Shown here: piece by piece, positions 22,003 to 62,807 of the stretch
How positions within the stretch are numbered: position 1 is the first letter of the stretch
How the letters are laid out: every line of letters begins with the position of its first letter
Source: Asterella californica
Taxonomy: Eukaryota > Streptophyta > Marchantiopsida > Marchantiales > Aytoniaceae
Direction: 5' to 3'
DNA length: 64,000 nt
NCBI GenBank assembly: GCA_036924285.1
Contig: JAYKYS010000019.1
Coordinates: 744,001 to 808,000, forward strand
Notes under the pieces: model-generated
The model's input: only the letters and a program-made list of their open reading frames with translations
What the model was told of the DNA's origin: nothing
Database searches by the model: none
Translations under genes and position numbers: made by a program

Positions 22003-22295
22003 AAGCCCGCAGCTGTGACACAGTTCCGCTAATTACGTCACGGTTTATACGTGCGAATTGATTAATGATGGATTTTAGATTTATAGTCAATCGAATCGAC
22101 TCACCTGTAATCGGGTTTCGAGCTCATTTCCGCAGTCATCGAGCTCTGAACTGCAGTCATGGTCACGGTCACGGTCCGAACTGCACGGTCTGAACTGCAG
22201 TCACGGTCATCGATGCAATCATTGAGCTCTGAACTGCAGTCAAGGTCGTTCTCCGTCATTTTGACTGAAGTCTGTTGTCCGTTCGTTTTGAATTA
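22003..22295 (+). repeat. MULE left terminal inverted repeat
   Basis: Pairs with 30600-30884 in reverse complement. Near-identical blocks include GCTAATTACGTCA, CGAATTGATTAATGATGGAT and TTTCGAGCTCATT. The inner half is built from short subrepeats (GAACTGCAGTCA, CACGGTCA) that differ in number between the two ends. Overall identity by eye is roughly 75-80 percent, so the insertion is not recent. Confidence 0.88.
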
Positions 22296-22501
22296 GGCAC
22301 AGTTTAAAAACAATTTGTTCTTTGTTCATTTTTGAATTCGGTACAGTTCAACAAAAAATTGTCAATGGTCTCAAATGTGCTCAGGAAGTAAAGAACTACG
22401 TAGTCCATAGTCGCACAATGCGCAATGTTAGACTTCACTTATGACAAAACACTGTGCATTAACATCAATCTTTTCATCTGATCTTCGCTAATACAGCTTG
22501 A

Positions 22502-23018
22502 TTGCGTTTTGCAGTCGTGATGTTCTGTTCTTTTGCTACAGTGGGCAGCTACGCGAGACGTAATATGCAGTACTTGGTTGACTGCTTGGAAACTAATATG
22601 TGTTGCTCTGATCAATTATTGAAAGTTTCTGTCTTAGCGTATGTGAAAACTGGGTTCAAGACATATGACGGATGCGACAGATGCAGCAACAAATTGTCCG
22701 GGTTGTTTTGTTCGAGATTGTGTCTTTGAAAAAATGTTTCAAATTGCAGCTTTTGGTAGCGGACGAGAGTGCCAACGCGTGGACCATAGCATGGGAAGCT
22801 GGGAGAGATTTTCTAGACGTAAGCGCCTCAGCTTATAGTCTAATGGAAGTGGCTCATTCTCATGAAATCGACTCCCGTGCAGAGGGGAGACATCAAGTAG
22901 CTCATTCTCATGCCAGCGATGATTATAAGAGTAGTTTTTTCGTGAGATTTTCAGTGAGATCTTTGGCCGTGTTGTTATCGATGGTTACGTTCGCATCTGC
23001 TATATTGAAGTGGTGACG
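22502..23018 (+). pseudogene. RPA70 C-terminal (DBD-C)-like ssDNA-binding gene inside the MULE
   Basis: Two frames together give the RPA70 DBD-C layout. The first (22502-22729) ends VSVLAYVKTGFKTYDGCDRC then SNKLSG and FCSRLC: a beta strand into a CxxC zinc ribbon with a second Cys pair. The second (read from about 22735) gives CFKLQLLVADESANAWTIAW and then EAGRDFLDVSASAYSLMEV, matching the family pattern YxLxLxVxDxTGxxWxxAFxEAAExLLGxSAxEL. RPA70 binds single-stranded DNA in replication and repair. A frame change near 22730 separates the halves, so the gene is broken unless a very small intron is used. It points toward the transposase gene. The same arrangement recurs at 62478-62807. Confidence 0.6.
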
Positions 23019-23229
23019 GTGATCGATTATTTGATCATTATGAACATGGACTGTCTTTGTGGACCGTCATGATGGACTGTCATATGCGTTTGACAGTCCA
23101 AATGAATTGTTTACATTTTTAAAGTGAATGAATAGAGATGGAAGTCTTCACCTATTGGTATATTGATGTATATTCTGTGATTGAAAGAATCGGTGATTTT
23201 TTGTGCAAGGATCGCAGTAAACGATAGAC

Positions 23230-23545
23230 TCTTGACTTTGGTAGATGATTTTGGTGAGAAACAGATCGCACAGAGCGCAATGCGACCGATTAGAGACTCG
23301 CACTTAATGCGATCCTGGACCCGTCGCACTGAACGCGAGGCCTTAACTGCGACCTAGGCTGTCAACTCCTTTTCCACCTTTCCAACAAAATGATGTTGGG
23401 TGACTTAGGACCGATCGCACTGATCGCAATCTTATGGTCTAGGCTCAGTACGAAACTTTAAGACCTCGCGCTCAGTGCGATTTTCGACGGATCGCACTGA
23501 GCGCGAGATCTTAACTACGACCTAGGCTCAGTGCGACATTGTCAA
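23230..23545. repeat. Palindromic CTCAGTGCGAC / GTCGCACTGAG units, cluster 1
   Basis: Several units such as GCGCTCAGTGCGAT and GATCGCACTGAGCGCGAG lie head to head (for example near 23467-23505), forming stems with spacers of about ten bases. Same unit as clusters 2 and 3. Confidence 0.75.
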
Positions 23546-23845
23546 CTCCTTCTACATCTTTCCAACGAATAATGATGACATGTTCTATTTTACAGCGGAG
23601 CTGTGGGGTTCGAGGAGAAGAGTTGAACAAAATCAAAAAATAACACACTGAGAATAAGAAAACAACACACTTTATTAACATGATTTTAATTTCTTCATAA
23701 AGTCGATCGCTTGAAGGACAGTGCAAGAACGCCATATCAAGTTGATTTCCTCGTGTGACATAGTTTCCCAATAGTTTTTAAGAGCGGCGTAAAGATCTCT
23801 TCCAAAAGTCTGTCTATACTTTGCGGTCACATAACTTGGGGTATC

Positions 23846-24813
23846 TTAGGTGTTGCTTGCCCATGATTTCAGCCATGGTAAAAGTACATTCATAAAATAA
23901 TCGTCTCTGTCCATGTCATCCGACTCTGGCATGAAAGGGGGGGATGGATTGCATTGTAGGGATGATTAGTACTATTTTTCTCAGGAGAATCATCTATCAA
24001 CAACACATCTCGTGTACATAAGTTAAACGCGAATAATCGAGAAAAATCCTTCAGATACAAGTAATTACCCGTGGTAGCTTCTCTGGTCGTCTTGAAACGA
24101 GTACATATGGGTTGTCTGAAGATTCTACAGATCTACATAGTACAATTTTGCGAGAAGAAGTAGAAGCAAAGTAAAAACTGATAACATCTAAAATGATTTT
24201 AATAGTATTGAGTTTATCTAATTTATCTGACCTGATGCGATCCCTATAGACAAGTACTTTTTGATCTCCATGGATCGAAGGATGGCGTTGCAGGTGCTCA
24301 GAGTACGCAATGTCCATATCAGCACTTGAAAATCTTGACAGCATATCTTCATGAACTCTTTAACTCCCTTCTGTGTCACGTAGAATAATTCTTTTTTGGC
24401 ACTCTCAACTTGGTAACCTCTCTCTTTAGCTCCTTGGAGCTCTAAGTCATTACGTCTCGTTCTTATCAACAACTTGTTCAGATCTAAAATCAACATCTTT
24501 CTCCTGATCATAGTAGGATTTCTCAATCTGGGATAGAAGAGTTTCGAAGAACGAAGCTGAGTGACATCCGTTTTTACCTCTCCAACTCTTCCTCTTGTAT
24601 TTGCAGTTGCTCGTACATGTCTTCTTCTCTCTGGTTCGCTTTTGCTATTCGGAGGTTCAAAGTTTCTTCTTCTTTTTCTCTTCTGATCGCGAGCCGAGCA
24701 TCTAAGTCTTCCTCTTTTTTCCTCTTGTTGAATAGAGTATCCGATCCTCCTAGATCAGATGTTCGATGCGATGTATAAGATCTAGGCTTAATGCGACATA
24801 AGGCATGTCGCAC
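23846..24813 (-). pseudogene. Coiled-coil plus FCP1/NIF-type HAD phosphatase carried by the MULE
   Basis: Reading leftward: a charged coiled-coil exon (24813-24574, ending EDMYEQLQIQEEELER), a donor GTAAAA, then a frame with MLILDLNKLLIRTRR followed by FYVTQKGVKEFMKICCQDFQ and VLIWTL. This is the FCP1/SCP/NIF family layout: DLN/DxDxL nucleophile motif, then PGVxEFLxxCxxxFxVxIWS. Further left a frame reads DVLLIDDSPEKNSTNHP and NAIHPPPF, with DDSP (23983-23994) as the family's metal-binding motif IV. It ends at a TAA at 23846. The family removes phosphate from serine or threonine, for example on the RNA polymerase II tail. Plants have FCP1-like proteins with DLN in place of DLD. The middle part (24.05-24.34 kb) changes frame, through small introns or decay. 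Most likely a captured host gene. Confidence 0.6.
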
Positions 24814-25480
24814 TACATCAGATGTCCGATGGAATGTATAAGACCTAGGCTCAATGCGAACCGGAGGGAAGCGGAAAGATCGTACTGTTCAGTGTCTTCA
24901 AAGAGAAAGATCGCGCTCAGTGCGACATAAGGTCCGTCGCACTGAGCGTAATGCGAAACGTTAAGACCGTGCACTCAGTGCAAAGGGATTGGGTCGCATT
25001 CAGTGTGAAGGGAAAGATCTCGTGCTCAGTGCGATCCTGGTGCGGTCGCATTGACCGCGAGGCCTTAAGCTTTCTCGTAGTTAAGACCTAGGCTCAGTGC
25101 GACATAGTTCTCGTCGCATTGAGCGCAATGCGATGCCTTAAGACCGCGCGCTCAGTGCGAAGCTGAAGGAAGCGGAAGGGTCTGACTGTTTAGTATCTTC
25201 GAAGAGAAAGATCGTGCACATTGCGACCTAAGGTTCGGCGCACTGAGCGCAATGCGAAGAGAAAGGATCGCATTGACCGCACGCTCAGTGCGAATACGAA
25301 AAGATCACACTGTTCGGTGCGTAAAGAAAGACCGCGTATAGTGCAATTGGACCACGGTCGCACTATGCGCAAGCTTTGAGCTGAAAGCTGTGAGCTCAAT
25401 GCAACCGAGGACTCGTCGCACTGTGCTATCAGCTTAAAGCTGCTCAGAGCGACCTAGGGCTCGTCGCATTGTGCTATCAA
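24760..25480. repeat. Palindromic CTCAGTGCGAC array, cluster 2 (largest)
   Basis: More than fifteen half-units in about 700 bp, alternating orientation: for example GCGCTCAGTGCGAC then GTCGCACTGAGCG at 24910-24950, and CTCAGTGCGACATAG then CGTCGCATTGAGCGCAATGCGA at 25090-25130. Variants CAATGCGA and ATTGCGA show divergence. The array lies between the phosphatase exons and the candidate upstream exons. Confidence 0.8.
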
Positions 25481-25538
25481 CTGCTGCACTCTGTCAACAA
25501 CACTTTACTGCGAGCGAACACTAAACTTTCACTGAACT

Positions 25539-26499
25539 TTACACAGAGAGCCAACGTAACTCAAGCAAAAAATAGTGAAACCGCAAGTAAGCAAATAGTA
25601 CACAAGTAAAGAGAAAAGAAGTACCTCCATCATCGTGGTCCATGCCAAACTCTTCCTGGTGGATATTTTGATGATGAGTACTCTCTTGTACTTCGTGTTC
25701 AATGGAAAATACTAAGGCATCCTCGCTCAAGATACCCAAGTGTCGCATGAGATGAGTTAAAGTCATCCTGCAGAAAGTTTGTACGGATCCTCTTTTCCTC
25801 TGGTCTCGGATGTGCTTTTGCATATGCAACACTTATGCCTCCAGGTTCTCGAACGTGAACAAAGATCAATCGTAATCTTTATCTTCTCCTTCCACTTTAG
25901 ATTTTACATACAAGGCGAATTGACTTGTAACAGCTTTAGGCCTTCTTCTCACCAGGAGAACCACATTCAAGCACTGAAAAGCATATCTCAATCCCTCGAA
26001 AGCTCATTCTCTTGCGAAGTATCTTTTCTCGACTTTTATCGTTCTCAAAAAATCAATCGTCTATTCGGATGTGTCTCACTAAGGTAACATCACAGATCCT
26101 TCAAGAATAACAAAGGCTTTGCGGATTAAGTCAAGGGTCAACTTGAACTCCCGATCCTCAATTTTTTTTGACCATTCGTGTTTCTGCATTATAGAATTAG
26201 ATGAAAGCAGCACAAAGTCCAATCTGACATAAACAAACATTACAATAAGTAAAGGTACAACCAACCAGGACCTAATACTTAACTTGAGTTTACTTAGGTT
26301 AGTTACATTTGAGCTTATTATAAACGAGGATCGAGTAAACTGTAAACAAGGACCGAGTAAACTGTAAACGAGGGACTAACGGCAGAGTACTTACGTCAGG
26401 ACGAGAAAATTCGAAAGAGAAAGCAATTGATAATTCCAGCTTCTCTAGCGCGTCCTCGTCTATTTCACTCAAGGCTCGACTGATAACTTCTTTATCCAT
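25539..26499 (-). other. Candidate upstream exons of the MULE phosphatase gene
   Basis: A frame from 26499 reads MDKEVISRALSEIDEDALEK then LELSIAFSFEFSRPD and meets a strong donor (GTAAGT) at 26394. A following segment reads KHEWSKKIEDREFKLTLDLI after a TGCAG acceptor. A third frame ending at 25.62 kb reads MTLTHLMRHLGILSEDALVF and closes at a GTACTT donor. Phases of the first two fit. The sequence is not a family I know. These may be 5' exons of the coiled-coil/phosphatase gene, which would place cluster 2 of the palindromes in an intron, or a separate gene. Confidence 0.3.
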
Positions 26500-26589
26500 C
26501 CATTGTCTGACGATACGTCGATGTAAGTCGTGTTGGGAAGTAAATGTAATTAAAAAAGGTCCTTTTCTCGCGGTGCCATACTTATACCT

Positions 26590-27065
26590 CGTTCACTCAC
26601 TCCACATACATGCCAGCTCGTTTCACAATTACTCGAAAGATAAAGTCACAGTTTAGACGCGAGAGATGCTTGTACCTCGTTCACTCACTGCATGTACATG
26701 CCAGAGTCTCATTCACTGCACATACATGCCAGCTCACTTGCCAGATCGCTTCACAATTACTCGAAGGGATCACTCTGATAAGAAAAAAAGAAGCAAAAGT
26801 CACAGTTTAGACGCGAGGGATTGAAGAGCAAACAGCAGAAAGACTCAAAAGTCCAAGTGCTCGAGAGAAGAGCGAAACTCCAAGTGCCCGGGACAAGAGC
26901 GAACAGCAGAAGGACTCAAAACTCCAAGTGGTCGATCGCTTATACTCCAAGTGGTCGATCGCTGTCCGTAGAAAGTACTCAATACTCCAAGTGCTCGATC
27001 GCTGCCTCTCAATACTCCATGTGGTCGATCGATAATACTCCAAGTAGTCGATCGTTGCACGCGAT
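26590..27065 (+). repeat. Two short tandem-repeat fields in the MULE
   Basis: 26590-26820 is a diverged duplication: CCTCGTTCACTCACT, ACATACATGCCAGCTC, TTCACAATTACTCGAA and AAAGTCACAGTTTAGACGCG each occur twice or more. 26850-27065 is a minisatellite of about 20-40 bp around ATACTCCAAGTGGTCGATCG, with six or more copies. Confidence 0.8.
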
Positions 27066-27134
27066 GACAAATCGATGTGTAGAGAAAATCGTTCAATGCG
27101 TCCGGCGAAAATCGCATGGCTTCGTCTTCAGTGC

Positions 27135-27460
27135 GGCGGAGTAAATCGCAGTCAGTGCGACGGTGGGCGGAAGCGCATTCAGCGTGAAAGACTTTGGAAC
27201 ATCTCGAGTGGTCTCCTAAATACCTGCAAGAGCTGTGCGCTCAGTGCGACCTAGTTTCAGTCGTATTGAGCGCACGAATAAGTGGTCGCACTGAATGCAC
27301 GGCTCCAAGCGGTTGCACTGCGCTCAGTGCGACATATTTTCAGTCGCATTGAGCGCACGGTTAGAAGCGGTCGCGTTGCACTCACTGCGACCGAGCCTAG
27401 GTCGCACTGAGCGCGCAGCTAAAAACGATCGTGCTGCGCTCAATGCGACCTGAACACGTA
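27135..27460. repeat. Palindromic CTCAGTGCGAC array, cluster 3
   Basis: Units such as GCGCTCAGTGCGACCTA and GTCGCACTGAGCGCGC recur every 40-60 bp, with a particularly tight inverted pair at 27375-27415 (ACTGCGACCGAGCCTAGGTCGCA). It lies just beyond the 3' side of the transposase gene. Confidence 0.8.
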
Positions 27461-27848
27461 GCTATACATTTTATTAAGGTTAAGAGTCTTAGATTACTTT
27501 TCATTAGAAAATGACATTGGCTTCTTAATTATAGTGAACTTATGTTCAACTTATAGTTAGTTCACCATGTGAATGTGTTCAACTCAGAATCAACTGTATT
27601 CACTTTTTAGAGGTTCAGAGTCTCAGAGATCATCCACAACTGTAATCATTTTTTAGAAGTTCAGAGTCTCAGAGATCATCCACAAATTAGAGTCACCCTC
27701 CACGGAGTTGAACTCAGGCAGTCCAAATCGATCTGGTCCGACAGGATGTCATGCACAAAATGAAACAAAAATCACAAGCTTAAAAACAAAAATTAACGCA
27801 ACACAATGAGAGGTCAGTAGATGCCCACGTATGTTGCTGTCCTCGAGA

Positions 27849-30269
27849 TCACAAAACAGTTATACAATGACGGACTTTTCTCTCAAAAGATTGGAACGCC
27901 CTGTCAAGTGACTTCAGAAAAAGAGGGTTGTCATGTTCACGATTGCAAAGAGTTCTGAGAAAGTCAAGAATCTCTTGACATCGCTCGATCAAATTCGATC
28001 TTTCTGTGTCTTCTGATGCTCCTTGCGAACGTACATGTGCATCTTCTTCACCCTCTGTAAAATCAAAGTGAGTAGGACAATTTGACATTTCTTTGTTTAC
28101 ATATACATGACCTGGTTCAAACCATGGGTTCAGATCATCTGGTACAAATTCTCTGTTGAAAAAGCTCTCCGAACTAGTGAAAACATAAAGTGGGTACGTG
28201 CAGCGCCGGAACGTAGATGAGAACACGAGTTGTATCGCAAACTTCTCAGCATAAGCTCCGACCAAATGCTTACATAACAAGTATGGGCTATTCAAAAATG
28301 AGTAGCAAGATGATATCCATCTCTCCACGTCTGTAAAGTGACTACCTGGAAGAGAGACATCTTTACTCAAATATTTGCGCCAAGTGACACGAAACTGTTC
28401 CCACCAGCTCAAAAATAAACGTCCGTGACTGATTTGATGTAGCGATACTTACATATCTGCCACAAGACTTTCACATATGATTAGCATCAACTTATCTAAA
28501 CGAAGACGATTAAGGTTTGTAATCGTGCTTTAATTTTCTCCAATGACTCTCGACAACATTCGTAATACGCGATAAGCAAAGGAGAGGTTTTGATGCTATG
28601 TTGTCTGGATGTACCACTCTAGTCAGAGATATATCCACAAAGACAAAAGGTTCGAACTCTTACAAAACTCATAAATCTCACGAACAACCGTAAAGTGTAA
28701 TACACCGAGAGTAAAAAATTTCCCTTCAGCGGATGGTATAAGTGAATGCAAGTTGAAATATTTGATGATCATTTCAACAACAACCTTTCGTTGTTCAGCA
28801 TTACACAACTGACCAACAACTCCCACACTGTCTAAAAACCAATTTACATCAATAAAAGAGAAAGAATTACTTGCCTCCACACTGTTGTATGATCCTATGG
28901 CTCGAGCTAGTACACATACATCGAACTTCGATCGCTGATTGAGCATGCTTCAAACAAAGTTGAACATACATAGCAGTAAAGACAGAGCGTAATGTCGAAA
29001 TCTGATCAATGTCTTTGTCAGTGAGTGCGAACATCGGACGTAGTCCTTTATCTCTTAATCTCTTGAACCACATCATAAGAACCGTCTTTCTATATTGCTT
29101 CGTGACTGATCTGGAACTCTTTTTTGCATCACCTTGTCTCAAGTAAAACATGTACGATAGAGGCATACCAAAACCTCCGAAGTTTGCAGCAATAACGAAC
29201 AGCTCAAAGCACATCGAGTTAGTTTTGAAAGTACTATCGATAATAATTTCTCTGACACTACTTATATGCTCAAAAAAAGATGTGCATATTGCGAAAGCAA
29301 TGTATTCGTCAGTCTGTTCATACAACACCTCAACAAAACCTTTTTGAGCTAAAGATTCGCTGCGTATTAACAAAGATGTAGACTTCACTTGATCATCTAT
29401 ATCACGAAGGTATTGTCTAGACTGAACTTCAGCGATCCAGAAATTTACCTGCGCCCGAGTTATATAAGGACTAATGAACATTTTTTCACATAATATACGG
29501 TACACCTCAGGCTTCCGGAGATTCAGTCCAGATATCTACTCCAAAAACGTGACAGCAATAGTAGGAAAACAATGCAACTTATGCGTCGGCTTCTCATGTG
29601 ACAGCAAATGTTGACACGTTTAATACATAAGCTTCTGTTGTACGTCCACTGTTACTCGTAAAGTTCCATTGCACTCAGATCAATCTATCTTTCATTTCTT
29701 CTCTGGTTGTCTCACCAAAGATGTGGATCCTTCACCCTTATCTCTGAATTGTGTCTTGTCAGATCGTGAGATACACCATAATGTTGCCTTTTAAGATTGA
29801 ACAGTCTTTCACAGAAACACGCGGGTTACATACTTCCGAATAGTATCCAGAGGCTACCTTCATATTCAGAATGATGCTTGTCTTCAGCCAAGACATCAAA
29901 CACACAGACAAGTTACTGGAGTTCATAGTCTGCAACTCATGCATGCTACTCTCTTCTGAAAGGTGGACTTTCAGTCGGAAAAACACAAACCCATCTTTGT
30001 CATCCTCATCCTCGAAGCACTCTTGCACAACATGAATCATTTCTGAATGATCACACTCCACGGTCACTATGAATGCGTTGTCATTCATCAGTCTCATTCT
30101 CCATAACCGCTTCGTACGTAGTACCGAGGTTTAATTTGTTATAGCACTGGTTACACTGCTTGAACACAGCTAAGTCAAGAGGGTTATGTCTCTTGCGAGC
30201 ACGCGTGAATGTGCTGATTGACAACGTTCGATTACATCGATCGTAGTAAACCATCTCCATGATAAGCAC
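27849..30269 (-). pseudogene. Mutator-superfamily transposase with SWIM zinc finger, degenerate
   Basis: From 30269 leftward: a Cys-containing N-terminal module (DRCNRTLSISTF ... QCNQCYNK), an alpha/beta segment, then YRILCEKMFISPYITRAQ. The DDE core shows IIIDSTFKTNSMCFELFVIA (first Asp, about 29240), MFALTDKDIDQI (second Asp, about 29020) and QLCLKHAQSAIE (the C-x2-H motif of MULEs). A later frame gives RITNVVESHWRKLKHDY, the conserved TTNxxE region near 28550, and the C-terminal frame has a SWIM-like SSCYSFLNSPYLLCKHLV. In-frame stops at 29620-29622 (TAA) and 29536-29538 (TAG), and a frame change near 30090, break the gene. The first SWIM cysteine is Ser here, while the copy at 61.4 kb keeps it, and one N-terminal Cys is Tyr. 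A catalytic protein is therefore unlikely. Confidence 0.85.
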
Positions 30270-30599
30270 TCAACAATGAGGACTCAGAAAATTGCAAGCT
30301 TTCAGGTCTATCAGACTTACTGTCAACAAGCTCTCTACACAGACGATCCAGCGGAATTCAACAACGAAAAACGACCACAGAAATGAAAGTGAAACGTCGA
30401 ATATGAAATTCGAATTCAAGAACAGCGAATTCAAGAACAGCGAATTTCTGCCAAATTCAGTCGTGAGGACAAGAGTTGAATGAACGCAAAATTTTCTTCA
30501 CGAACTTCCGCCGCCTCCAACTGTAACATGGTAACAAGGCGCCTCCAGACGTCTTCAATGCCACCGTCCTAGAACAAGACGCGGTGAATTATGGATGAA

Positions 30600-30884
30600 C
30601 AAACGAACGACGACAACGGACTTGCAACGGACGGGTGAAGAGAACCTTGACTGCACTCAATGACCGTGACTGCAGTTCAGATCGTGACCGTGTGGCTGCG
30701 GTTCATGATCGTGACTGCATAACCGTGACCGTGAATGCGGTAATGAGCGGGATGATTGCGATAATGAGCTCGAAATCAGGTTACAGATGAGTCGACCGAC
30801 TATGAATCTGAAATCCATCATTAATCAATTCGTACGTATAAATCCTGACGTAATTAGCAAAACTGTGCCACAGTTGCGGGCTTG
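30600..30884 (-). repeat. MULE right terminal inverted repeat
   Basis: Reverse complement of the left terminus, ending TTGCGGGCTT next to the target duplication. Its inner half contains the short ACCGTGACTGC subrepeats in a different copy number from the left end. Confidence 0.88.
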
Positions 30885-30893
30885 TTGCTGCCC
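30885..30893 (+). repeat. Target-site duplication, right of MULE
   Basis: TTGCTGCCC, same orientation and sequence as 21994-22002. Confidence 0.85.
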
Positions 30894-31261
30894 GGTTGTG
30901 ACTACGAATTCAATGTGTGATCTATTATTTATTAATTCTTAAACCTGTCGGACCAGATTGTTAGTAGAGAGACAAGAATTTTAAAACAGAGGTAGTTTGT
31001 CCAGCGCTCGAGGCTAATCGGCATTCTTTGTATTCTCAACCGACTGGAATTCGGAAAAAGTCGAGTTGAAATGGTGTCCAGCTGGATATTTTGCAGGTTA
31101 AAGTTTTACAAAATGATAATTTACCTGTTAAGAAAACTGAGAAGACTAATAAGTGATTGAGAAAAATCGGTTCCCCTTCATTGCCGTCGGATAATTTATG
31201 GTTCTCAAAATTTTTTATCTATAGCATTGCGTTGGTAGCATGTTAATGTCAAGTCGATTCA

Positions 31262-32240
31262 TTAGATGAGAAATAATTATTCATTAACCGTAGTACTTGG
31301 CTACGATAACCTAAATAAGGGCTAGTGTTTAGAGGTAAGTGTATTAAAGTGCTAATGCGCTCGTTCATTTATCTATGTTTGTGATGGATGGATGGAGGAT
31401 GTAAGAAAGAAAACGAATGCTTTGAAAGTTCATTTATTTCTTGTTGTGATGTCATGATGAATCATAGTTTACTGTGTGAGGACTCAAAAGAGGCTTGCAA
31501 GCATGAGAGAAAGCATGAATGGTACATGGAAACAAACAAAAATGGTAAAGTTCTCAATAGCTTTCAGTTCAATCTTCACATCTTAGATTCCATGATCAAA
31601 ATGAGAAGGTCACAAATGAGAAACATTTCTCAGTTAGCGTTCCTTTTTAAGTGCTCAGTGATTGCTAACTGGCAAGGGAAAGACTTTGGGAAGCAATAAG
31701 CCAATTATGCTCTTGTTTGTGCTTTAAGTGACAATGCATTACGCCCAAGTGTCAAAAATCAATAAGCAAACAATGGACAACTGGGTGTATAATGAAAAAT
31801 GATTATTCAAATTTTTGACACTTATCCTCCTCCATTAAAGAGACATCAAACCGTGGAACACCGTAAAGGGGTGTGATGAATCGGGCAAGAGCACGAGAAT
31901 ATCAGTTATTACTATACAAATTTTTCATCCTGTGAAGGTAATGTAGTGGTTAACCTTCAAAAATAATAACTCTGGGTCACATGTTCGAATCTCGTGTTAA
32001 TTTTTTTTCTGTTTTTGTCTTAGGGTGCTCAGTATCTTAACTTACGACTTGCACTATTTTCTATCTTAAGGTGCTCGGTATCTTAATAGGTTCCTAATGT
32101 GAGCTCACTAGATGGTAAATAAATTCTCATTAAACACAATACTTGACTACGATAACCTAAGTAAGGACTAATGGATAATTATGACATGTATTAAAGTACT
32201 AATGCGCTCGCTTACCCAACTTTAAGTTTGTGATGGATGG
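31262..32240 (+). repeat. Direct repeat pair, about 135 bp, 846 bp apart
   Basis: 31262-31395 and 32108-32240 share CTACGATAACCTAA, TATTAAAGT, CTAATGCGCTCG and GTTTGTGATGGATGGA in the same order, about 80 percent identical by eye. The tRNA-like unit lies between them. They could be remnants of a short LTR/TRIM-like element or of a segmental duplication; no primer-binding site was identified. Confidence 0.6.
31930..32010 (+). mobile_element. tRNA-derived SINE head or tRNA pseudogene
   Basis: TGTAGTGGTTAA at 31942-31953 resembles a Pol III A box and GTTCGAATCT at 31983-31992 a B box, spaced as in a tRNA. An eight-T run at 32001-32008 follows as a Pol III terminator. No acceptor stem can be formed, so it is not a working tRNA. 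Confidence 0.5.
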
Positions 32241-32465
32241 ACAAAATTAAAGCTGTTGTGATGTGACGAGAAACAGAAAATAGTTGTGACGCGAGAAGAT
32301 ATTCAAAATGAAAGAAATGTATTCAAAATTATTGAGAACTCACATTGCTTTTAACAATAAAACCTAACCACTATCACTATCAGTGCTATCGTTTCTCTTG
32401 ATCAAGATCTCAGTGTTGGCATCTATAATCTACGATTTTGTTGCATTTCTTCATATGGACAAAGT

Positions 32466-33102: not shown

Positions 33103-33117
33103 AATGAACTCACCTTA

Positions 33118-37140: not shown

Positions 37141-37148
37141 CGTCGCCA

Positions 37149-37185
37149 CCCGATCTTTTTCTTTCTAGAAAGAAAAAGACTCGGG
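37149..37185. repeat. 26-bp perfect palindrome with extended arms
   Basis: 37154-37179 (TCTTTTTCTTTCT then AGAAAGAAAAAGA) is a perfect palindrome with no spacer. With a one-base bulge the arms extend to CCCGA and TCGGG. Confidence 0.75.
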
Positions 37186-37189
37186 ATTA

Positions 37190-43450: not shown

Positions 43451-43458
43451 ATATGCAT

Positions 43459-45720: not shown

Positions 45721-45819
45721 TAGGTTGATGTGGCTACCTGCATGTGGAACCTCCTAGATGACAACCATGTAGTCAACTAGCGTGTTACATGCGAGCCATG
45801 TGATAAGGTTTTAGGATTT

Positions 45820-47700: not shown

Positions 47701-47710
<10 letters not shown>

Positions 47711-47760
<50 letters not shown>
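47711..47760 (+). repeat. (GA)n microsatellite
   Basis: A near-pure GA run of about 50 bp following TGTGTGTGTGTG. Confidence 0.95.
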
Positions 47761-47762
<2 letters not shown>

Positions 47763-53136: not shown

Positions 53137-55578
53137 CTAAAAGCGGTGCGGAGGCCACGATGCCGATCTCGTCAGGGAAGGCTTCATCTTCTTGTCCTCC
53201 TCCAGGCTGATCATTCCCAAATGCGACGGATCCTCCAACATCATTTTCGCCACCAGGTATCCGGCTATGGACCACGTCTGGTACTTCCTGGCTTGCTTCC
53301 CGATGTAGCGCCCCAGCTTTCCATCGTAGTACTCGGGCCAGCCGTCCTTCGCCAGCCTCTGTTCCACTAGGTCAATCGCTCGCCGAGCGATCTGCGGTCG
53401 GCCTGTCTTGATGCAGGCTGCTGTCAGCATCCAGAGCAGAACTGCACGCAGATGAGCAGAAAAAGAATCCACACCCTGGCGTAAGTAGCTGGAGAACATT
53501 TTGTGACTGACCTGACCTGACCTGACCTGAACTGCTCCTGCCCTGCCCTGCCCTAATAAGCCACCTCTGTTCGGACATGATCATCAAAACCCCCTCAAAA
53601 GCATTGACAGGTGAAGGTAATGCGTCAAAATTCTGAAAACCCAACCCTCAACCACACGCACCGAATGTGGAAAGTCAGGTACTTCTATTCTTCTACTGGA
53701 GTCAAAACGCAACACTACTGCAAGGAAAGGAACGGAAACTGAAAAACGCTGAAGCACTCTCCATGAACATCGGCATTAATGAAGTACCAGTGGCTTTCAC
53801 GTTGCGAGGTCAAGAATGGGGACCCTAAGCCACAGCTTCACATAACTCGGGGAATCCAATCATGCGCAGTCGTGGCAGCAGGCTTTTAGACATTGCGCCC
53901 CTGTACCTGGAACCCTAAAAGGTACAGCCTACGTGAATGAATTCATCCCCTACCCGTGGCCGATCGTTGTAACGAGAAAAGATATCTCGAGATGTCCAAC
54001 CGACCAACAAACAACGAGTTTGTGCCCCTACTGAGGCCTCTCGAACATTGAAATAAAGTTCGTGACCTCGTGATCTCCATACGGCCAATCCACCGGGAAT
54101 GTGCCAAACAGATCAATTCCGACAGAATTCCACGACAGAGTTCTTACCTGGCCAGGATCCACCGTTATGGTAGCTCCATCTTGTGTTCTTCGGGTCGCAT
54201 CCGGTAACAATTCGCCACTCATGACCTTCTAATGCCGGATACGACACTTTGAGGGGCATGTCCCCGACCAGTTCCTGCCATCTTTCCTCAAAAAGATCCA
54301 TGATAGCTGATGATTGTTCCGGGGTAGCCAAAGCTGACAGGATAGCGCAGCAATTGCCGATGGCAAACCAACGGAAATCCAGCCGGGCAGGACTCACGTT
54401 TCCGATAAAGTAGCCTCCCTTCATTGGCATGAAATCAAAAACCCAATCCGGGATGGATTCTGGTATAACGTTGAATTTATTTACAGCTGTATGGGAATAC
54501 TCCTCCGTTTTGAATCGGTAGATATTGTTGAGCTGTTCGTGGTCGAGCCAAAAGTACTCGCGCATGTGAAAGCTCAATGCTGTTAACCTCTTATCTATAC
54601 GTTCATGCAACTCTTTTCCTCCATTCTCAGGCTTCAGCAAAGTCCTGGCGCACCTAAGCGCCATAAAGAACAAAGACTGGATTTCTATGGGGTACCCGTA
54701 GATCCCCTGACACCAGACAATGCCAAAAAAACCAAACATTGCTGTCAGTGCGACTTCTAGATCAGTCTTCCAGGGACTCTCTAAACTCATCAGAGCGCAT
54801 GAGGCCAAGAAACACATCCCCTGTAAAGCTAGCTGCCCGAGAAGCCACAACCACGTTTGAATGACCTGATCTTTTACCTCGAATGACAACAGAAACGATG
54901 CATAATAATGAGGATCGTAGAGAAGACTTACCATTCTTCTATCGATCATTGCACATCCATCTGCGCAGAGCAGGGTCGGGAAGGTATCGAACCCGTCTGC
55001 AAGGCAAAGGTTAAGAATAAGCGTCATGCCCCGCTGGAAATCGGGCGTGTCCGCAAGGCTGTGATCTCCAGTAGATTTGGTGTAGGCTCGGAGCAGAATG
55101 ATCCACCAGAACCCTGAGTCGACGGGTGCAACTCTTCCAATGGCACTCTCTCCGAAATCTGCTATCATCGTGTCACTATTCCGCACCGGATCGTGCAGTA
55201 CCTTGAAGCTAGCGGGCATCACTCCTTCACCCAACGTGAAACAATCAATACGCTTCTCCCATGCCTGAAGACGGAGAGCTTTGTTCAAAAAGTTCCTGAC
55301 AATCTCGGGTTCCCCATTCATGAGAAACGCCAACCCGCTTGGAACGAAGTCCCTCACGAACACCTGCCAAATCAACCCACCCGCGTATCAGTCAGTATAC
55401 AGTCATGCCTACCTAAATCCAAATTTCTTGGTCAAAAACCACCAAGACAAATTAACCAGTCCCCAACCAGTCCGTGACAGACACAATTAAACCCCGATGT
55501 GGAAATTCAGCTCGCATAACTACTGCCGAAAAGAAAGTCCAAACTCGCCTTTCCCGGGAGACAAACGGTCTGCGTGTG

Positions 55579-55636
<58 letters not shown>

Positions 55637-56334
55637 AGAAGAAGAAGAAGAAGAAGAAGAAATCGACGTAAGTAAGTAACTCGACAATCACAGAAATGGT
55701 GAGTGCGAATGGTGAGTGCAATTCGGAAGAGGCAAACCAGACAAAGGTAGTTTGTCACAAGCCATCCTAGTTGGTAGAAGGAGGTCCCACCTACGAGATC
55801 CAAGTATGAACGAGTATTCCGCTGCAATAATTCAACATCACTAACAAGCCAGCTGCGGCGTACCTGATTGTAATTGAGGGAGTCTTCCGAAGGATCCATC
55901 GCTGCAATAGTTCCTACGGGCTTCCCACGGAAGTAGACTAGAGATCTTCTCAATGCATCCCACGCGTCGGCTATCATCGGATGCGGCTCAAAGGGATGTC
56001 TCGGTGTGTTCAGAGAGCCCCGGGGGGTACCGCGAGGAGTGTTGGTGGCCGATCGGGAAGAAGGTGTTACCATGCCATCCAAGCAGTCGGAGCTTTTCAC
56101 TGTCTCTAAAGTGTGCCGCATTCGAGGGGAGGAAAGTAACTCACTAAACGATCTCTCGTCAAGAGAGCGTTGTGTTTCAATTGTTGGATGAGCGGGGCGA
56201 GGCTTGACCTCCAGAAGCTTGGAAAAATCGAATCCATTGTCTGTAGCTGAGCGGTAGCCATCCACATTCCTCCCATGGGACTCATTTGCAGTTTCCATCG
56301 ACAGGGAGCTTACCGAGAGCATGTCTACAGGCAT
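53137..56334 (-). CDS. CINV: Cytosolic alkaline/neutral invertase (GH100)
   Basis: Four exons on the minus strand join in frame: 56334-55864, 55363-54932, 54706-54148 and 53441-53137, giving 588 aa, a normal length for cytosolic plant members. The enzyme hydrolyses sucrose to glucose and fructose at neutral pH in the cytosol. A low-complexity N-terminus with many Ser/Pro sites ([20 protein letters not shown]) precedes the family start [20 protein letters not shown]. Then come [88 protein letters not shown] and [20 protein letters not shown], ending in [20 protein letters not shown]. Acidic residues in VDSG and in the TEEYS or LEGHEW region are candidates for the catalytic pair. No transit peptide is visible. 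Intron 1 (500 bp) carries GA/GAA microsatellites. Confidence 0.96.
53505..53560. repeat. Pentanucleotide tandem repeat in invertase intron 3
   Basis: (TGACC)n, four units, followed by (TGCCC)n, three units. Intron 3 runs 54147-53442. Confidence 0.85.
55585..55662. repeat. Compound (GA)n-(GAA)n microsatellite in invertase intron 1
   Basis: About 48 bp of GA followed by GGGAGGGA and seven GAA units on the plus strand, so CT/TTC-rich in the transcript. It lies toward the 3' half of intron 1 and may act as a polypyrimidine-rich splice context. Confidence 0.92.
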
Positions 56335-58620
56335 CCGATGGACTCCAAACGCCTCCTCTTCTCTCCCTTTACGAGACTTTAAGAGCTTCCCCCGCCTTGG
56401 ACCACTGCGTTCCTCAACACCTTCCGTCTCGTCACCGATCTAACCCTAGACTTCTCAGGGTGCAGCGATGGTAAATAAAACAGTCGGTCAAACTTCCTTG
56501 AGACTGCATGCAACGACCCGGGCACCTCTCTCGTGTGCGGAGAACGTGGTCTGTCAGTGGGAGCCGCTGATAACGGAGGGTTTTGGAAACTTAAGCCTGT
56601 ATCAAATCAACTTCTCGTGTAATCGTGTGGGCTCTGATTTCCAAATATTTTTTTCCACAATTTTCTATCGAGCGTTTTGAGTGAGTAGCGTCGACTGGGC
56701 CCAGCACAAGTGGTCTTCGATGAAATAATTATCGATATGACGCGGGAGGGATCGAAGGCTCTGTCACACTCACTCACTCACTAATCCCCCGCGTGTCCGA
56801 GGTTCAATTAGCTCCCAACAACCTTCGAAACTCGGAGCAGACCGAGGGGATGTTCGTGCAGCAATCGCGGGCGGGTGGCGGGGGTCCAAGCCAGCCTCAC
56901 CGAGCCTGACGAACGTCACCCCGCACTGGTGAGAGGAGCAGAAACAGAGGCGACTGCGAAGATCTTATAAGACATCCACTGAAGATAGTAGGTAGTCTGG
57001 TGAACAGATGTGAGATGGTTCCCGACACAGACTTGGAACTACTGGACGGGCATTCACTGCGTCAAAACGACGAGCGACCTTTCCAACTATGTAGCAAACA
57101 ACAACGCCTGGGACCTTAACACTCTCACTAGGATCGAGGCAAGTCAAGTCCTCCCGCGCGAACGGGGCGGTGCCCAAAGATAGCAACCAGCGAACCCAAT
57201 GCTCCTTCTGAGCCCCAGGGGAGTGTATGTGTACTCGGTCCCAATTTGCCCCTCCCCTCACACTCTCTCTCTCTCGCCCCCTCTCACGCAGACGGCTGGG
57301 GAAGACGAGATGCGATGCCGGCGTGACGAAAAGCCCGTGGGATCGATCGAGCGAGGAAAAGCACACACTCGTGAGTGAGTGAGAAAGGCAGGCGGCTATT
57401 CAGTAGTTCTGTTCCGAGTCCGGTAGTAGCAGCAGTCCAGTCCTCACTGCTAGTAGCAGTAGTAGTAGCTGGCTGGAAAGAACCAACGAACGAACGAACG
57501 AGGTGAATGCTCGCGTGGTAAGTCTAATAACACCGCCCGGTGTGTAGATTGTCCCGACTGGTCGGCGGTCGTCGTCGTCGTAGGAGGAGGAGGAGGGAGA
57601 ACCGTGGCAGTGCGGTCGGACAAGTGGTAGTGAGGTAATGGTGGTGGTAAGTATCCGGCAGAGGCACTGCTTGCCTGGTATGGTGGCGGTGGTGGTGTCG
57701 GATGATAGGCCCAGCCCAGCCTTGCCTCCCTGCCCTGCCCTTCCCTTCCCTTCCCTTCCCAGTAGGAGGAGAGGGGCTCTAGAAGAAGTTCGCAAAAGAT
57801 CCCGGCCGACGGACGGGATGGGTGGGACGGGAAACAAGGGGACTCAAAGGAAGGTGAGAGATCCACTAGGCGCGTGCTGTTCCACCAGCACCAACGGTTG
57901 TCACAACAACGACAATAACGCGAGGCCCCGGACACACACAAATCGCACTGCCCCTTTCACAATCGAGCGAGCGACACAGCAGAGCAGAGCAGAGAAGAGA
58001 GACAGTGAGAGAGAAAGAGAGACGGAAGAAAAAAGCTCTCGAGGATCCTCTCAGTAGTAAAACTGAGTGGGAGAAAGAGAGAGTGAGAGAGAGAGAGAGA
58101 GAGCGACGGACTCACTCAGAAAGAAGATACGAAGAGAGGAGAGTGTGAGTGAGTGAGTATGATATGTGTGCTGGCAGTCCTGGCTCGAGCGGATGCAGAA
58201 GAGAGGACACGCAAGGGAATAGAAGAGCTTGTGAGAGGGGGAATATAAAGGGGAGCAGGCGGGTGCGTGCCAGCTAGATGCACGCCGTTGTACAGAGCAT
58301 GGGTAAGGTCGGTAGACGCGGATATGATGCGATTGATGGGAGAGAGGGTCTTCCTCTCTCGTGGTGGGCCCCGTCCCGTCCCCTCCCCCTCGAATGGGCG
58401 ATTCGAGCGAGAGAGAACGAGAAAGAGTGTATGTCCTAAACAAGCAAGGAAAGAAGTAAAAGATGAATGAAGAAGAAGAACCGCAACCCCCTCCACAAGA
58501 ATACCTCCCACGCTTACAAAGCACCACTTCAGAAAACTCGAAAAGATAAAAGTCAAGTAAAAAAGAGGATTCCGAAAGCTCATGCTACCAGGTTTCATCT
58601 CACCGATGCTCAATTAATTA
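56335..58620 (-). promoter_or_regulatory. Upstream region of the invertase gene, pyrimidine-rich
   Basis: Upstream of the invertase start, on its coding strand, long CT tracts lie at about 57260-57290 and 58068-58105, with further CT-rich runs to 58150. Such Y-patches are frequent in plant core promoters and leaders. Frames across 57.4-58.6 kb overlap on both strands, are low in complexity and are not credible genes. A 5' leader intron is possible but cannot be placed. Confidence 0.4.
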
Positions 58621-59537
58621 ATACACCACTGATCGTTATTTAAACTTTGTTCTTCTTCTCCTTCGATTCAGCTTCTCTTTTCTAGATTCGAGGTTTTCTC
58701 TTTTGACATCTGAGAGCATGTCAAAACGGGTCTCGACCTATGACTAGTACTACTGATTTAGGCTTCAGAGAAGAAGATCAAAGTTGAACAGTCGGACTTC
58801 AAAACTGATGATTGGGAGACCAAAACAAAGACTCGAAACTGTCAAGACTCTCAAGTTTAGAGGACTATTCACAGATGATTAATTTGGTTTTCTGGTACTC
58901 ACACTTTGCCAAACTAATGTGTGCGTGCAGGGTCTGAATATAATGGCTAAGCGTGCCGTCAAATGTCCTTAATTGCTTGGCTAAGTTACTAATACGGATG
59001 CAACGACAGGAACACAACTGAACTCGTGAAAGAAATAAACGAGGTTACTAGCCGTTCATGAACGAATCTGACGAACCGGGTCATTTCTGGACTCATGTCT
59101 CTAAAGCATGGCATTGCATGAAATAGCAACATTCGTGTTTTCTAATTCATTCATTCGCGTGCTTTATTCTGGTCGAGCTGCTCTCCGTTCACACTGACAG
59201 AGGTTTACATACGATGTTAGCTCATCCAGATCGAGTTGTGAATCAACGATAGAAGGTGCAAGCGATATCGTTGTTGGCACGCAATCTACTAGCGCATCCC
59301 TCTCATGAACATCCACGGAAGTTACAAACGTCAAGCAACAGTCTTGTGTAAGTGGTTCTTTGAATGTTTGTAGCACTGTTTAAATCTTTCAGCATCTGTC
59401 CATCTAGTATGTTCATTGTCTGTTCGTTTTATTAATTGCTCAGATTTGTCGCTGAACTCTCTAAATCTAGAGTATTGCACAAACAAGAATCTAAATCGTG
59501 AAGTCTTGCGATCATTATAAAAAATCAGCTTCTATTT
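58621..59537. other. AT-rich flank of the second MULE copy
   Basis: No gene. Probably the 5' non-coding part of the MULE at 59.5 kb and its insertion flank. The left terminus could not be recognised: the AAGCCCGCA end of the first element is not present. Confidence 0.35.
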
Positions 59538-61545
59538 TTGTATGTTTGGATAGTGTGGAGAGATCAAGATATCCGAACAGAGGTTGGTGGTGCGAGAATG
59601 GAACTGCAATGTTGCACGAGGTGCAACAAGAATATGTCATTAAGCAAATTCATCAGTCAACGATCTAGGAGTAAATCGCTTCATTCTCGCTTGTTCAAGA
59701 CTTGTAATTCTTGTTTTGCAAAACGGCACAAAGGTCCTCATGAGATAATTGAACTTGAAGATACAATTCATGTTGTCGACAGTGTAGAATGTGCCTTAAG
59801 TGGATTTTTCGATGTCATGATTGAAGTCTTTGAGTCTGAAAAAATAGATAATGTTGATGTGTGTTACTGTATCATTATCAGATGATGTGTTAAACGAGTC
59901 AAAGTTGAACTCACATAAAGTGCATGAGGAAAGAAAATGTATATTGAAAAAATAATGCAACAGAGATATTCTAATTTGATTAGAGACTGGTTGAAGCTAG
60001 ACATTGAGTGTGGTTCAAAGTATTACTGGTACTAGCAATACTATAGAACTTTTGTAGTTCATAAGAACTGGAATCTGTGTTCTAGTTCTCTAGCTTGCGT
60101 CTCACGTGATAATTTGAGTTTCAAAAAGACTCATGAGGATGATGTGAGTAGTAGTGCAGATCTTATTAGCTTCCGAAGACAATCAGCTAAAAGAAAAACA
60201 ATAAATAGATATCCTTGTGGAGGTTCAATCTTGATCACAGTGGATATAGATGCACGAAAAGAGATCCTTTTGTTTCATCACCTAGTATTGCACGATGGTC
60301 CTAGTTACAGAGATCATGCTATGCTCGAACCAGCGATCCAGTACTTGGAAAATGTAGTTAATTTCGACATTCGGAAGCTTTAACTATATAGAAGTCTTTG
60401 TCAAGAGAAGTTGATTGTTCCTTCACTAATAACTCGATCACAAATGAATTCCCACATAAACAATATACTAGCACGTACTTATGTGCGAGATGTCAATGAT
60501 CAATTACACAGTGCATGTTGTCTTCTTAAGGTGAAAAGTACTCAACTCAAGAGTTCAAAACTGTGATTTATGTGAACGAATAATCTTGTGCAATGTTTGC
60601 TTTTATTACACCCTTCTTTCAGTATGTTTCGAGTATGCTGATACAGTGGATGAGTGCAGAACTGAGTTTGGATTTAAAAAGCTTTTTTTCTCATAGATAA
60701 AGACCAAGGTCAAATCAATGCAATGCAGAAGGTCTTTCTTAAAGCCTAGGTCCAACTATGTCTTAGGCATGCACAAGCAGCGGTAGAAACTCGAATACTT
60801 ACTTTATAGAGAGGAGTAGGTCCTTACAATGCTGATGTCACTCACAATAGGTTCTCTTTCATAGATGTTGCATGAAAACTAGACAGTCAACATGTTACAT
60901 GTCATATCATACCTTGAAGCTTGAAGAAGGAGGTGATAGGTTGGTTCACTAAGCACTTCAATGTGCATTCTTTGATACTAGTAGGTTTGAACACTTACAT
61001 GATTGGTGATCACCTGGATGAGCTATGCGTTCGAGAGGTTTGCGAATGGTGTTATGCTAGAAGCTTTTTGCACTTTTGGACATACATCTAGAACGAGTGG
61101 TATGAGTCTTCAAAGTGGATCTTATTTGCACGTATTGCTAAACTATTTTTGTCTTTTTCTAGGACTACTAATATTATAGATACACTGATAAAAGTTAAAA
61201 TTAGACTACAAATATACATCAAACCGTCCTTGCTTAGATAGACTATGTGAGTTGCTTGTAGATACAATGATATCAGATTTGCAAATATCGTTGTGACAAA
61301 TGTAGAATGGTAGAGAATACACATCTTGGTGGAAGGACTTCTGTTGTCGATGGATAGAATGCTTGGAAGGTAAAGTGGATGAGGTCTCAACTCATAAATA
61401 TGAAATTAACGTCCAAAGGTGGGTGTGCAGTTGTCTTTCATTCTTGAATTACATGTATCTATGCTGCGAACATCTCGTGCAAGCTTATTACGCTAGAAAC
61501 AAAGCTTGGCCAGAGTTTTGTACTTCATATACACGTCATGACTAG
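59538..61545 (+). pseudogene. Second Mutator transposase of the same family, deleted and broken
   Basis: Colinear with the transposase at 27.8-30.3 kb. The N-terminal module keeps both Cys pairs (CCTRCNKNMSLSKFISQRSR ... KTCNSCFAKRH). A later frame reads RYPCGGSILITVDIDARKEI then LFHHLVLHD, and LYRSLCQEKLIVPSLITRSQ matches YRILCEKMFISPYITRAQ. After AFITPFFQYVSSM the sequence jumps to DKDQGQINAMQKVFL and QLCLRHAQAAVETRIL. The roughly 100 residues between the first and second catalytic Asp are missing, a clear internal deletion. Then come FLHFWTYI, ARIAKLFLSFSRTTNIIDTL, and an intact SWIM finger RWVCSCLSFLNYMYLCCEHL near 61420-61490. Many stops and frame changes show it is dead. Confidence 0.8.
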
Positions 61546-62477
61546 CTGTTGTTTAATTTCAGTGAAGAGGCTCCTTTATTCTGTTGTTTGTGCAAGTAGT
61601 AATCCTTGGCAAGAGCTATGTGACATAAGATAAAATACTGTAGACAACGACTCCCATGATACTACATACCTTTACTGTAAAGATCTTGAGAAGAGAATTG
61701 ATGAAGCATATGAGTTAGAGGTTTCACTTGGTGGTAGAGAATCAGACAACTTAGTGTTTTTATGAAGATTGGAAAAGTTCTTCTTTGCATATGAACGACA
61801 CTTGTGAGATTGTTAATGGGTCCTCAACTCCTCTCGGCAACATAGAACTTGGACAAACAATGGTCCAGTTGATTTACTCTGCTAGATCATTTATGTTTCT
61901 GCAGTATTTGTATGTTTATTAGTAGAATAGATCCGATACATGGTCCCTAATGGAGGGACTAGATCCTAGCAAGTTCATGGGTATTTGTTTTCAAGTTTAG
62001 CACGTAAATATTTATAACAGTTTCAGTCCTAGTACGTGAGTAATGTTTCATTCAGTGTCTTAAACAAACATCAGTAAAGACTCTACTACAAATTCTAGCT
62101 TGGAATTGCAGAAATAAGAACTCTGATGTACACATATTGTAGAACACATTGGTACGCAGAGAGAACACAAATGTTTATAAATATTACGGTTATACAAAAT
62201 AAGTTTACAAATCCAGTTGATTGCTCCTGCACTGTCAAGAATTTTGCATCTACTACACAAAGTAAAGCTATGAAAGTGAGTAGAACTCATTTCTCTTTAA
62301 GCATATCATAAATATCTGTCAGAGATCGTCTCACTTCTTTGAACTCTTCTAAACTCACATTGAGACGATGATGATCTCTCAGTTTTATTCTGACTTGGTC
62401 CCATTTTCTTGTCTAGAGGTCTAGACAAAGATTATATTTTCTCCATGCATTCTATAACTTGACTACTGCTTTGTATC
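61546..62477. other. MULE 3' remnant, no intact gene
   Basis: Sequence between the SWIM end of the transposase and the RPA-like segment. Frames are short and without domains. The palindromic CTCAGTGCGAC arrays of the first MULE are not present here. Confidence 0.4.
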
Positions 62478-62807
62478 TCAAATCCATAACAAGACACGAG
62501 GAAAACTCAACACGGCACTACGTACAATCTCGTCTTGTCGTTCATTACTCAACTCACAAAATTGACAAGCGTCCATGTTGAACAACTTTGATGCTTCATC
62601 AAAAGTAGTTAACTGCAATGGTAGACCATCCATTGAACTATCGCATGCATACAACTGGAGTCTGAACGCAAAAGTGCTCTTCACGGACTGGTGATAAGTA
62701 ATGGATTTTCTTCTGCTCAACATGCATTGTCTACCATTTGGATCCGGGTGCGAATTTGTCGTGTATGTATAGTTCCATGGAAATATTTGAACACTGCTAT
62801 AGTTCAC
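62478..62807 (-). pseudogene. RPA70 C-terminal (DBD-C)-like segment beside the second MULE transposase
   Basis: The frame reads SVQIFPWNYTYTTNSHPDPN, then STFAFRLQLYACDSSMDGLP and LQLTTFDEASKLFNMDACQF followed by CELSNERQDEIVRSAV. This follows the RPA70 DBD-C order: FPWxYxxC zinc-ribbon entry, YxLxLxVxDxT strand, then LFDxEAxKLLGxSAxEF helix. The zinc ribbon has lost most cysteines (only one Cys is left where four are expected). It faces the transposase at 59.5-61.5 kb, exactly as the RPA-like segment at 22.5 kb faces its transposase. A frame at about 63060-63270 minus (YFGAVSLDVENEPCSGLTLC) could be upstream coding sequence. Confidence 0.52.

Follow-up and report, generated by a model that had tools for sequence, protein, structure and literature searches.

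Why should two transposons that are not recent copies of each other both carry, facing the transposase gene, a small gene resembling DNA-binding domain C (DBD-C) of replication protein A, RPA70? The question arises from a 64,000-nucleotide stretch of Asterella californica (Marchantiopsida, Aytoniaceae; assembly GCA_036924285.1, contig JAYKYS010000019.1, positions 744,001 to 808,000), hereafter the window, where a preliminary description had noticed two Mutator-like elements (MULEs), each with a transposase and, downstream of it and convergent, an RPA70-C-like gene. The sequence bears this out: both elements have terminal inverted repeats (TIRs), and in both the RPA70-C-like gene lies towards the end remote from the transposase (Table 1). 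We think it probable that both are dead copies from MULE families that typically pair a transposase gene with a small convergent gene of RPA70 DBD-C-like type, the latter serving as a single-stranded-DNA-binding accessory of transposition. What sequence comparison establishes is in the first place an arrangement: both genes lie between the TIRs in the elements completed, keep a preferred place and orientation, recur through the genome, diverge jointly and, as far as intact frames go, appear constrained.

Element 1 is flanked on both sides by an exact 8-bp target-site duplication, TTGCTGCC, and its TIR arms are 75.6% identical over 242 bp (88% across the outer 96 bp). It is collinear over its whole length with a relative, L036 (12 blocks, about 6.1 kb, 71-87% nucleotide identity); the blocks covering the transposase, a gene resembling NLI-interacting-factor (NIF) phosphatases and the open reading frame (ORF) 25676-26593 stand at 83-85%, and the one covering the left TIR and the start of the RPA-like gene at 71%. 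L036 is a long form bounded by TIRs of 97.9% identity over 140 bp and an exact 8-bp duplication. It holds a 263-amino-acid (aa) RPA frame, two pieces of a NIF-like phosphatase, a homologue of ORF 25676-26593 and an 835-aa transposase frame, the RPA and transposase frames both lying inside the TIRs and open. The collinearity makes the window element a dead copy of a family having a member with open transposase and RPA frames. Compared with L036, the RPA-like gene of element 1 lacks an internal segment and shifts frame near 22715; the L036 protein matches it in tblastn at 82% over residues 1-66, and the hydrophobic C-terminal tail is retained (about 22924-23016). A frame-1 stretch at about 22965-23030, considered as the last strand of the oligonucleotide-binding (OB) fold, was dropped, the comparison with L036 placing the hydrophobic tail there in another frame.

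The transposase of element 1 carries an N-terminal CxxC motif and a SWIM-like C-terminus (by eye), and matches the MULE DDE domain, PF10551, at E 1.7e-5 and 25.6 bits, slightly below the 27.6-bit cut-off; L036 reaches 27.2 bits. At E<=0.001 its joined frames match 15 proteins, led by one from the liverwort Riccia sorocarpa (38% identity, E 2.1e-92), the others being metagenomic or from Glomeromycota. Among ten of these relatives PF10551 is above cut-off in four (P0001, P0005, P0008, P0010) and below it in six, and SWIM matches occur in six, all under the cut-off. The named relatives from outside plants (P0006, P0008, P0009, P0012, P0014) belong to arbuscular mycorrhizal fungi (Cetraspora, Gigaspora, Rhizophagus) and hint that the MULE lineage may have passed horizontally between plants and their fungi.

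Element 2 belongs to a second lineage. Its inverted arms are 80% identical over 59 bp (58897-58955 against 63147-63205); the right terminus, GAACCCTGTAGTGG, resembles the GAACCCTRCAG termini of five relatives, the left terminus is eroded, and GTTTTCT, 7 bp only, occurs on both flanks (58887-58893 and 63220-63226). These ends replace the extent of 59.5-62.8 kb given in the preliminary description. The transposases of the two elements are collinear, yet most tblastx pieces show only about 30-50% identity, which bears out that description's view that the two do not stem from a recent duplication. The RPA-like ORF of element 2, of a second type (e2-type), belongs to a family of 114 genome matches at E<=0.1, itself counted, its nearest other member being 82% identical.

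Complete relatives place the two genes in one element. In all five completed elements with a type-I RPA-like gene (L010, L013, L018, L020, L023) both genes lie between TIRs of 258-586 bp and 80.6-99.1% identity, ending in GAACCCTRCAG. Target-site duplications of 8 bp, read in register because longer flank matches in L018, L020 and L023 extend into the termini, are exact in L013, L020 and L023 and found at 7 of 8 positions in L018 and 8 of 9 in L010. Given the high identity of the TIRs (at least 97.4% in four pairs), some elements were recently mobile.

Over the 516.7-Mb host assembly PF08646 (Rep_fac-A_C) gave 50 matches at E<=0.001; the four presumed host RPA1 rows were skipped, rows 5-24 were taken with 10 kb around each, and 26 were not taken. 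A related transposase lies within 5 kb in 11 of these 20 loci, and is convergent with a downstream RPA-like gene in ten of the 11; L009, where a transposase fragment and an RPA-like gene share one strand, is probably two elements, as its distances to the other loci are mismatched. When the best 60 of 1135 transposase candidates were joined with the best 150 of 530 type-I RPA candidates (two rows of one transposase being merged, 61 to 60), 36 had a type-I RPA-like gene within 20 kb, 33 of them downstream and convergent and three otherwise, and 24 had none. The gap in 32 convergent pairs within 12 kb is 1.5-2.8 kb in eight, 4.9-5.9 kb in 21 and longer in three. For element 2 we scored the best 150 of 546 genome candidates obtained with a 128-aa piece of its transposase: this transposase and its ten closest relatives have an e2-type gene convergent and downstream within 12 kb in 10 of 11 cases, and at about 14.5 kb in the eleventh. 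Altogether 71 of 170 transposase places have an RPA-like gene within 12 kb among 235 RPA places (85 of the 114 e2-type rows entered, weak rows and second pieces being left out): 63 downstream and convergent, five upstream on the same strand and three divergent, against a uniform chance expectation of 1.9 in any orientation. Among these neighbours one position and orientation clearly prevails, whereas random placement was an outcome that the preliminary description would have counted against its reading.

The two genes also diverge together. Distances between RPA-like proteins follow those between transposases (Mantel r = 0.91, p = 5e-5, 10 loci), no larger value being found in 20000 permutations; the test took 10 of 13 loci, L009, L024 and L026 being dropped for missing pairs, and the distances of L009 do not fit. 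The pooled within-group ratio of nonsynonymous to synonymous change (pN/pS) in the RPA frames is 0.34 over 39 overlapping, non-independent pairs, 35 of them from one family and all from stop-free frames, a choice that favours constraint; L046, which has a frame shift in its tail, was left out and pairs outside a synonymous divergence (dS) of 0.02-2 were excluded. The intact RPA frames thus look constrained, and joint divergence and constraint together lend support to the suggestion of the preliminary description that this is an old MULE lineage with its own, convergent RPA-like partner.

The assignment to RPA comes through the relatives. The match to RPA profiles which the preliminary description anticipated fails for the window pieces, since neither single-frame nor frame-joined versions match Rep_fac-A_C in Pfam or an RPA in PDB, and succeeds only for genome relatives found with that same profile. 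The frame-joined piece of element 1 has no match among 5.8 billion proteins, and direct BLASTP between the two window pieces gives none. Of 792 ORFs in the window, a hidden Markov model (HMM) of three RPA-C sequences put that of element 2 first (P 4.5e-4) and the pieces of element 1 at ranks 14 and 30, which taken alone is weak. When 2145 window ORFs at least 20 aa long were searched with a type I HMM built from nine relatives, element 1 being left out, both pieces of element 1 were recovered (E 1.8e-20 and 1.1e-16). In the relatives, Rep_fac-A_C exceeds its 28.5-bit cut-off in nine of nine ORFs tested (29.9-35.2 bits), a result that confirms the frames and is not independent, these loci (9 of the 20) having been chosen with the same profile; it is not above cut-off in the type III protein. 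For profile-profile comparison we used a canonical RPA-C reference of 36 proteins, from a search with an RPA alignment that found 373 (of those among the matches listed, 120 of 120 have PF08646). Against it type I scores 96.8%, type II 94.2%, e2-type 48.6%, type III (one sequence) 2.0% and the family called tandem A 0.4%, with reversed controls below 1%, except 19.1% and 4.1% for types I and II against their own reverses, and the NIF and ORF 25676-26593 families at 1.0% or less. Between families, type III matches type I at 96.3% and type II at 97.3%, and e2-type matches type III at 92.2% and type II at 80.7%. The element 2 ORF itself gives E 0.18 with the type II, 0.97 with the RPA-C and 2 with the type I HMM, and its reading as RPA-C is moderately supported, by an indirect route. 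The C domain of the host RPA1 matches the type-I HMM at E 5.6e-11. BLASTP identity of the RPA part to the one host RPA1 copy compared is about 22-32% where significant, which speaks against recent capture. Viral contigs scanned with the type-I alignment held no relative.

Type-I proteins begin with a short N-terminal part, followed by a zinc ribbon and OB fold like those of RPA70-C, then by a linker and lastly by a hydrophobic segment at the C-terminus, and Pfam finds in the RPA-like proteins tested only the RPA70-C-like/OB domain and no further RPA domain. Cysteines C42, C45, C56 and C59 are invariant in nine of nine aligned type-I proteins and, from the alignment, are putative zinc ligands; the last pair is differently spaced in element 1 and the pattern is altered in e2-type proteins (by eye). 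Most type-I proteins have an FVG-like motif, absent from L011. An anchor-like hydrophobic stretch ends every one of the 21 type-I frames that are at least 230 aa long (Kyte-Doolittle 19-mer means of type-I tails, 2.0-3.4), that of L046 being reached after a frame shift; among ten shorter frames it is present in L047 and missing from nine. By eye, e2-type and type II proteins have no such tail, and in type I the linker and tail seem to sit where RPA70-C has its trimerisation helix for RPA32/RPA14.

Several observations weigh against our reading. Nine of the 20 RPA loci have no related transposase within 5 kb, four of the nine having a type II RPA with a NIF-like gene nearby, and at three (L014, L022, L027) 4.5 kb more of sequence still reveals none. 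Of the 170 transposase places, 99 have no RPA-like gene within 12 kb among the places scored, which partly reflects the scoring of only the best candidates of longer lists. An intact 839-aa transposase of a more distant clade (L058) has no RPA-like ORF, by five HMMs, in the 3.2 kb downstream, a stretch that would miss a gene 5 kb off, and at L055, L056 and L057 e2-type genes stand beside another RPA-like gene with no transposase like that of element 1 within 6 kb. The RPA-like gene is widespread; to call it universal would go beyond the evidence. The L036 frame, of element 1's own family, scores 20.2 bits, under the 28.5-bit cut-off of Rep_fac-A_C, four e2-type proteins have no RPA match in Pfam, and an AlphaFold model of the element 2 ORF made without an alignment, with a confidence score (pLDDT) of 47, gave no usable structure and was set aside. 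Single-pair pN/pS runs from 0.19 to 0.84, close pairs reaching the upper value, and the stop-free, largely one-family sample counts on the same side. DBD-C alone binds single-stranded DNA weakly in RPA, and a protein that simply coats such DNA would hardly be expected to have a membrane tail.

Two arrangements at these loci are recorded here for themselves. The intact L058 transposase has downstream of it a convergent ORF, coiled-coil-like by eye (L058:1861-2244, minus strand). In L055-L057 the two RPA-like genes stand in tandem on one strand, and the first is RPA-like through the type II and III profiles only.

How might such a protein serve a MULE? We infer that it would bind single-stranded DNA and act in transposition. 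Working with the transposase as an accessory encoded by the element, it could coat the single strands exposed at cut element ends, at staggered target gaps or at the donor gap, the element thereby using its own protein instead of awaiting host RPA; in type-I families it may act while tethered by the hydrophobic tail to a membrane, probably that of the nucleus. A bolder version, to which we can give only tentative credence, is that certain TIR transposons form a class with an obligate transposition partner of their own, a single-stranded-DNA-binding protein of RPA70-C-like type anchored by its tail, and that the MULE reaction is carried out in part at the nuclear membrane. RPA-like genes would then have joined MULEs more than once, giving two or more types that differ in their tails and, in MURA-like elements, a pair of such genes per element.

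The main rival turns the protein on the host: competing with host RPA for single-stranded DNA, or binding RPA/ATR partners, it would damp the damage response, or it would counter silencing as VANC of the VANDAL MULEs does, the membrane tail sequestering the target. An RPA70-C-like/OB domain standing alone beside a membrane-like tail would suit such a role, for which VANC, described in parts of PMC6446971, offers a precedent as an anti-silencing accessory gene. We nevertheless rate it unlikely, as no host target is known and the co-divergence of the RPA-like gene with the transposase fits a transposase partner at least equally well. That the gene is a mere passenger, taken up from the host in the manner of Pack-MULEs, might seem natural where gene capture is frequent, as it is in MULEs (PMC6446971), and where element 1 also holds a NIF-like phosphatase gene; the low identity to the one host RPA1 compared, which makes any capture not recent, the open frames with their pN/pS and co-divergence, and an orientation constant in 63 of 71 neighbouring pairs render it very improbable.

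It may also be asked whether the domain is RPA70-C at all, and not another zinc-ribbon OB fold such as OB3 of CDC24, in which case an RPA-like function could not be read from it. PF17244 (CDC24_OB3) does match six of the nine proteins at E<=1, one above cut-off, and supplies the only match, one under its cut-off, for the type III protein, and the scores of the e2-type and type III families against canonical RPA-C, 49% and 2%, point the same way; Rep_fac-A_C is, however, the better match in nine of nine, types I and II score 96.8% and 94.2% against the canonical profile, and the host RPA1 C domain is recovered by the type-I HMM, so that we hold this explanation to be improbable. An origin from Helitrons, the RPA segments having been inserted into or beside MULEs, has in its favour that plant Helitrons encode RPA homologues (PMC4683698, in the part available). 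It is scarcely credible when the gene sits inside the TIRs, always towards one and the same end, in each of the five completed type-I elements and in L036, and when the L036 ORFs profiled, which are part of the total, include no Rep/helicase.

Several known transposons invite comparison. The mudrB gene is convergent with mudrA. Excerpts of PMC9168764 describe, for MuDR of maize and type II Abermu of barley, a second gene opposite to the transposase, ORFR of Abermu lying between the transposase gene and the 3' TIR and having an unclear function, and sections of PMC6446971 give the function of mudrB as unknown, though apparently needed for integration. Like mudrA/mudrB and Abermu ORF1/ORFR, the elements here are two-gene MULEs with a convergent second gene (63 of 71 pairs here); unlike there, the second gene is RPA70-C-like. 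The mutB gene of yeast Mutyl and VANC are also MULE accessory genes, with a DNA-binding or anti-silencing role, and are not presented as RPA homologues in the passages concerned (PMC6446971). With Pack-MULEs the elements share additional gene sequence within a MULE; here the extra gene is common to diverged, transposase-carrying elements, appears constrained, co-diverges with the transposase and is no recent host copy. Helitrons are rolling-circle elements without TIRs. In plants some of them, such as Mothra, encode PHRPA (plant Helitron RPA), a distant RPA homologue found, by the available text of PMC4683698, only in monocots and dicots. A transposon-encoded distant RPA homologue is thus the common trait, whereas the elements here have TIRs, target-site duplications and a DDE transposase, and their protein has one RPA-C domain, with a hydrophobic tail in type I. 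The closest named transposases, those of Riccia sorocarpa and of Glomeromycota (among P0001-P0015), are known from protein sequence without genomic context.

A 2019 survey of MULEs gives as extras, in the part of its table available, plant mobile domain (PMD), domain of unknown function (DUF) and FAR1, and the words 'RPA' and 'replication' are absent from its main text. Searches of the published literature, with preprints and most subscription papers lying outside them, turned up no RPA or OB protein encoded by a MULE; to our knowledge an RPA-like partner protein has not previously been reported for MULEs. A recognisable RPA70-C domain makes the puzzling second genes of MULEs testable: does the element need its own single-stranded-DNA-binding protein, and why would that protein be anchored in a membrane? 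If our reading is true, a transposon-encoded RPA is not by itself the mark of a Helitron.

Table 1. Features of the two MULEs, in window coordinates (a dot marks features without strand)
Feature	Position	Strand	Basis
Element 1, decayed 8.9-kb MULE of the L036 family	22002..30884	.	TIRs; collinearity with L036
Left target-site duplication TTGCTGCC, element 1	21994..22001	.	read from sequence
Right target-site duplication TTGCTGCC, element 1	30885..30892	.	read from sequence
Left TIR, element 1	22002..22221	+	
Right TIR, element 1	30648..30884	-	
RPA70-C-like gene, type I, pseudogene, element 1	22520..23016	+	type I HMM; tblastn with L036 RPA
NIF-like phosphatase gene, decayed, element 1	23654..24755	-	PF03031; collinear with L036
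ORF without family name, element 1	25676..26593	-	matches in L014, L017, L021, L022, L026, L027, L036, L056
MULE transposase, MULE DDE domain, decayed, element 1	27804..30269	-	PF10551; tblastn with L036 transposase, 69-81%
Element 2, decayed 4.3-kb MULE, second lineage	58894..63219	.	TIR arms; right terminus; ends read by eye
Left TIR arm, element 2	58897..58955	+	
Right TIR arm with terminus, element 2	63147..63219	-	
MULE transposase, decayed, element 2	59598..61858	+	tblastx against element 1, E 1e-61
RPA-C-like ORF, second type (e2-type), element 2	62478..62840	-	convergent with transposase; HMM rank 1; genome family

Element 1 holds two further genes. PF03031 is above cut-off for 24218-24754 of the NIF-like gene, and the pieces tested of ORF 25676-26593, which may be plant-mobile-domain-like, have no Pfam match above cut-off. 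A core role was weighed for both genes, but the short elements L010, L013, L016, L018, L020 and L023 have no match to either, and we class them as cargo. The NIF-like (CTD-phosphatase-type) gene recurs near RPA-like genes, convergent with them in element 1, L017, L021, L022, L027, L028 and L036 and on the same strand in L056.

One locus, L022 (1134-11811, with L033), is a 10.7-kb element with TIRs 94% identical and no target-site duplication in register. It carries RPA-like genes of types II and III, the former on the strand of the transposase and the latter convergent with it, together with a NIF-like phosphatase and a homologue of ORF 25676-26593; its transposase, which has no Pfam match, is presumably MURA-like. 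Within element 1, between 23275 and 27455, a GCTCAGTGCGAC-type repeat is scattered in many copies and both orientations. Two genes fit a land-plant host: elsewhere in the window, at about 53-56 kb, lies what we take to be an invertase-like gene, and L036 is adjoined by a frame that is presumably chlorophyll a/b-binding-like.

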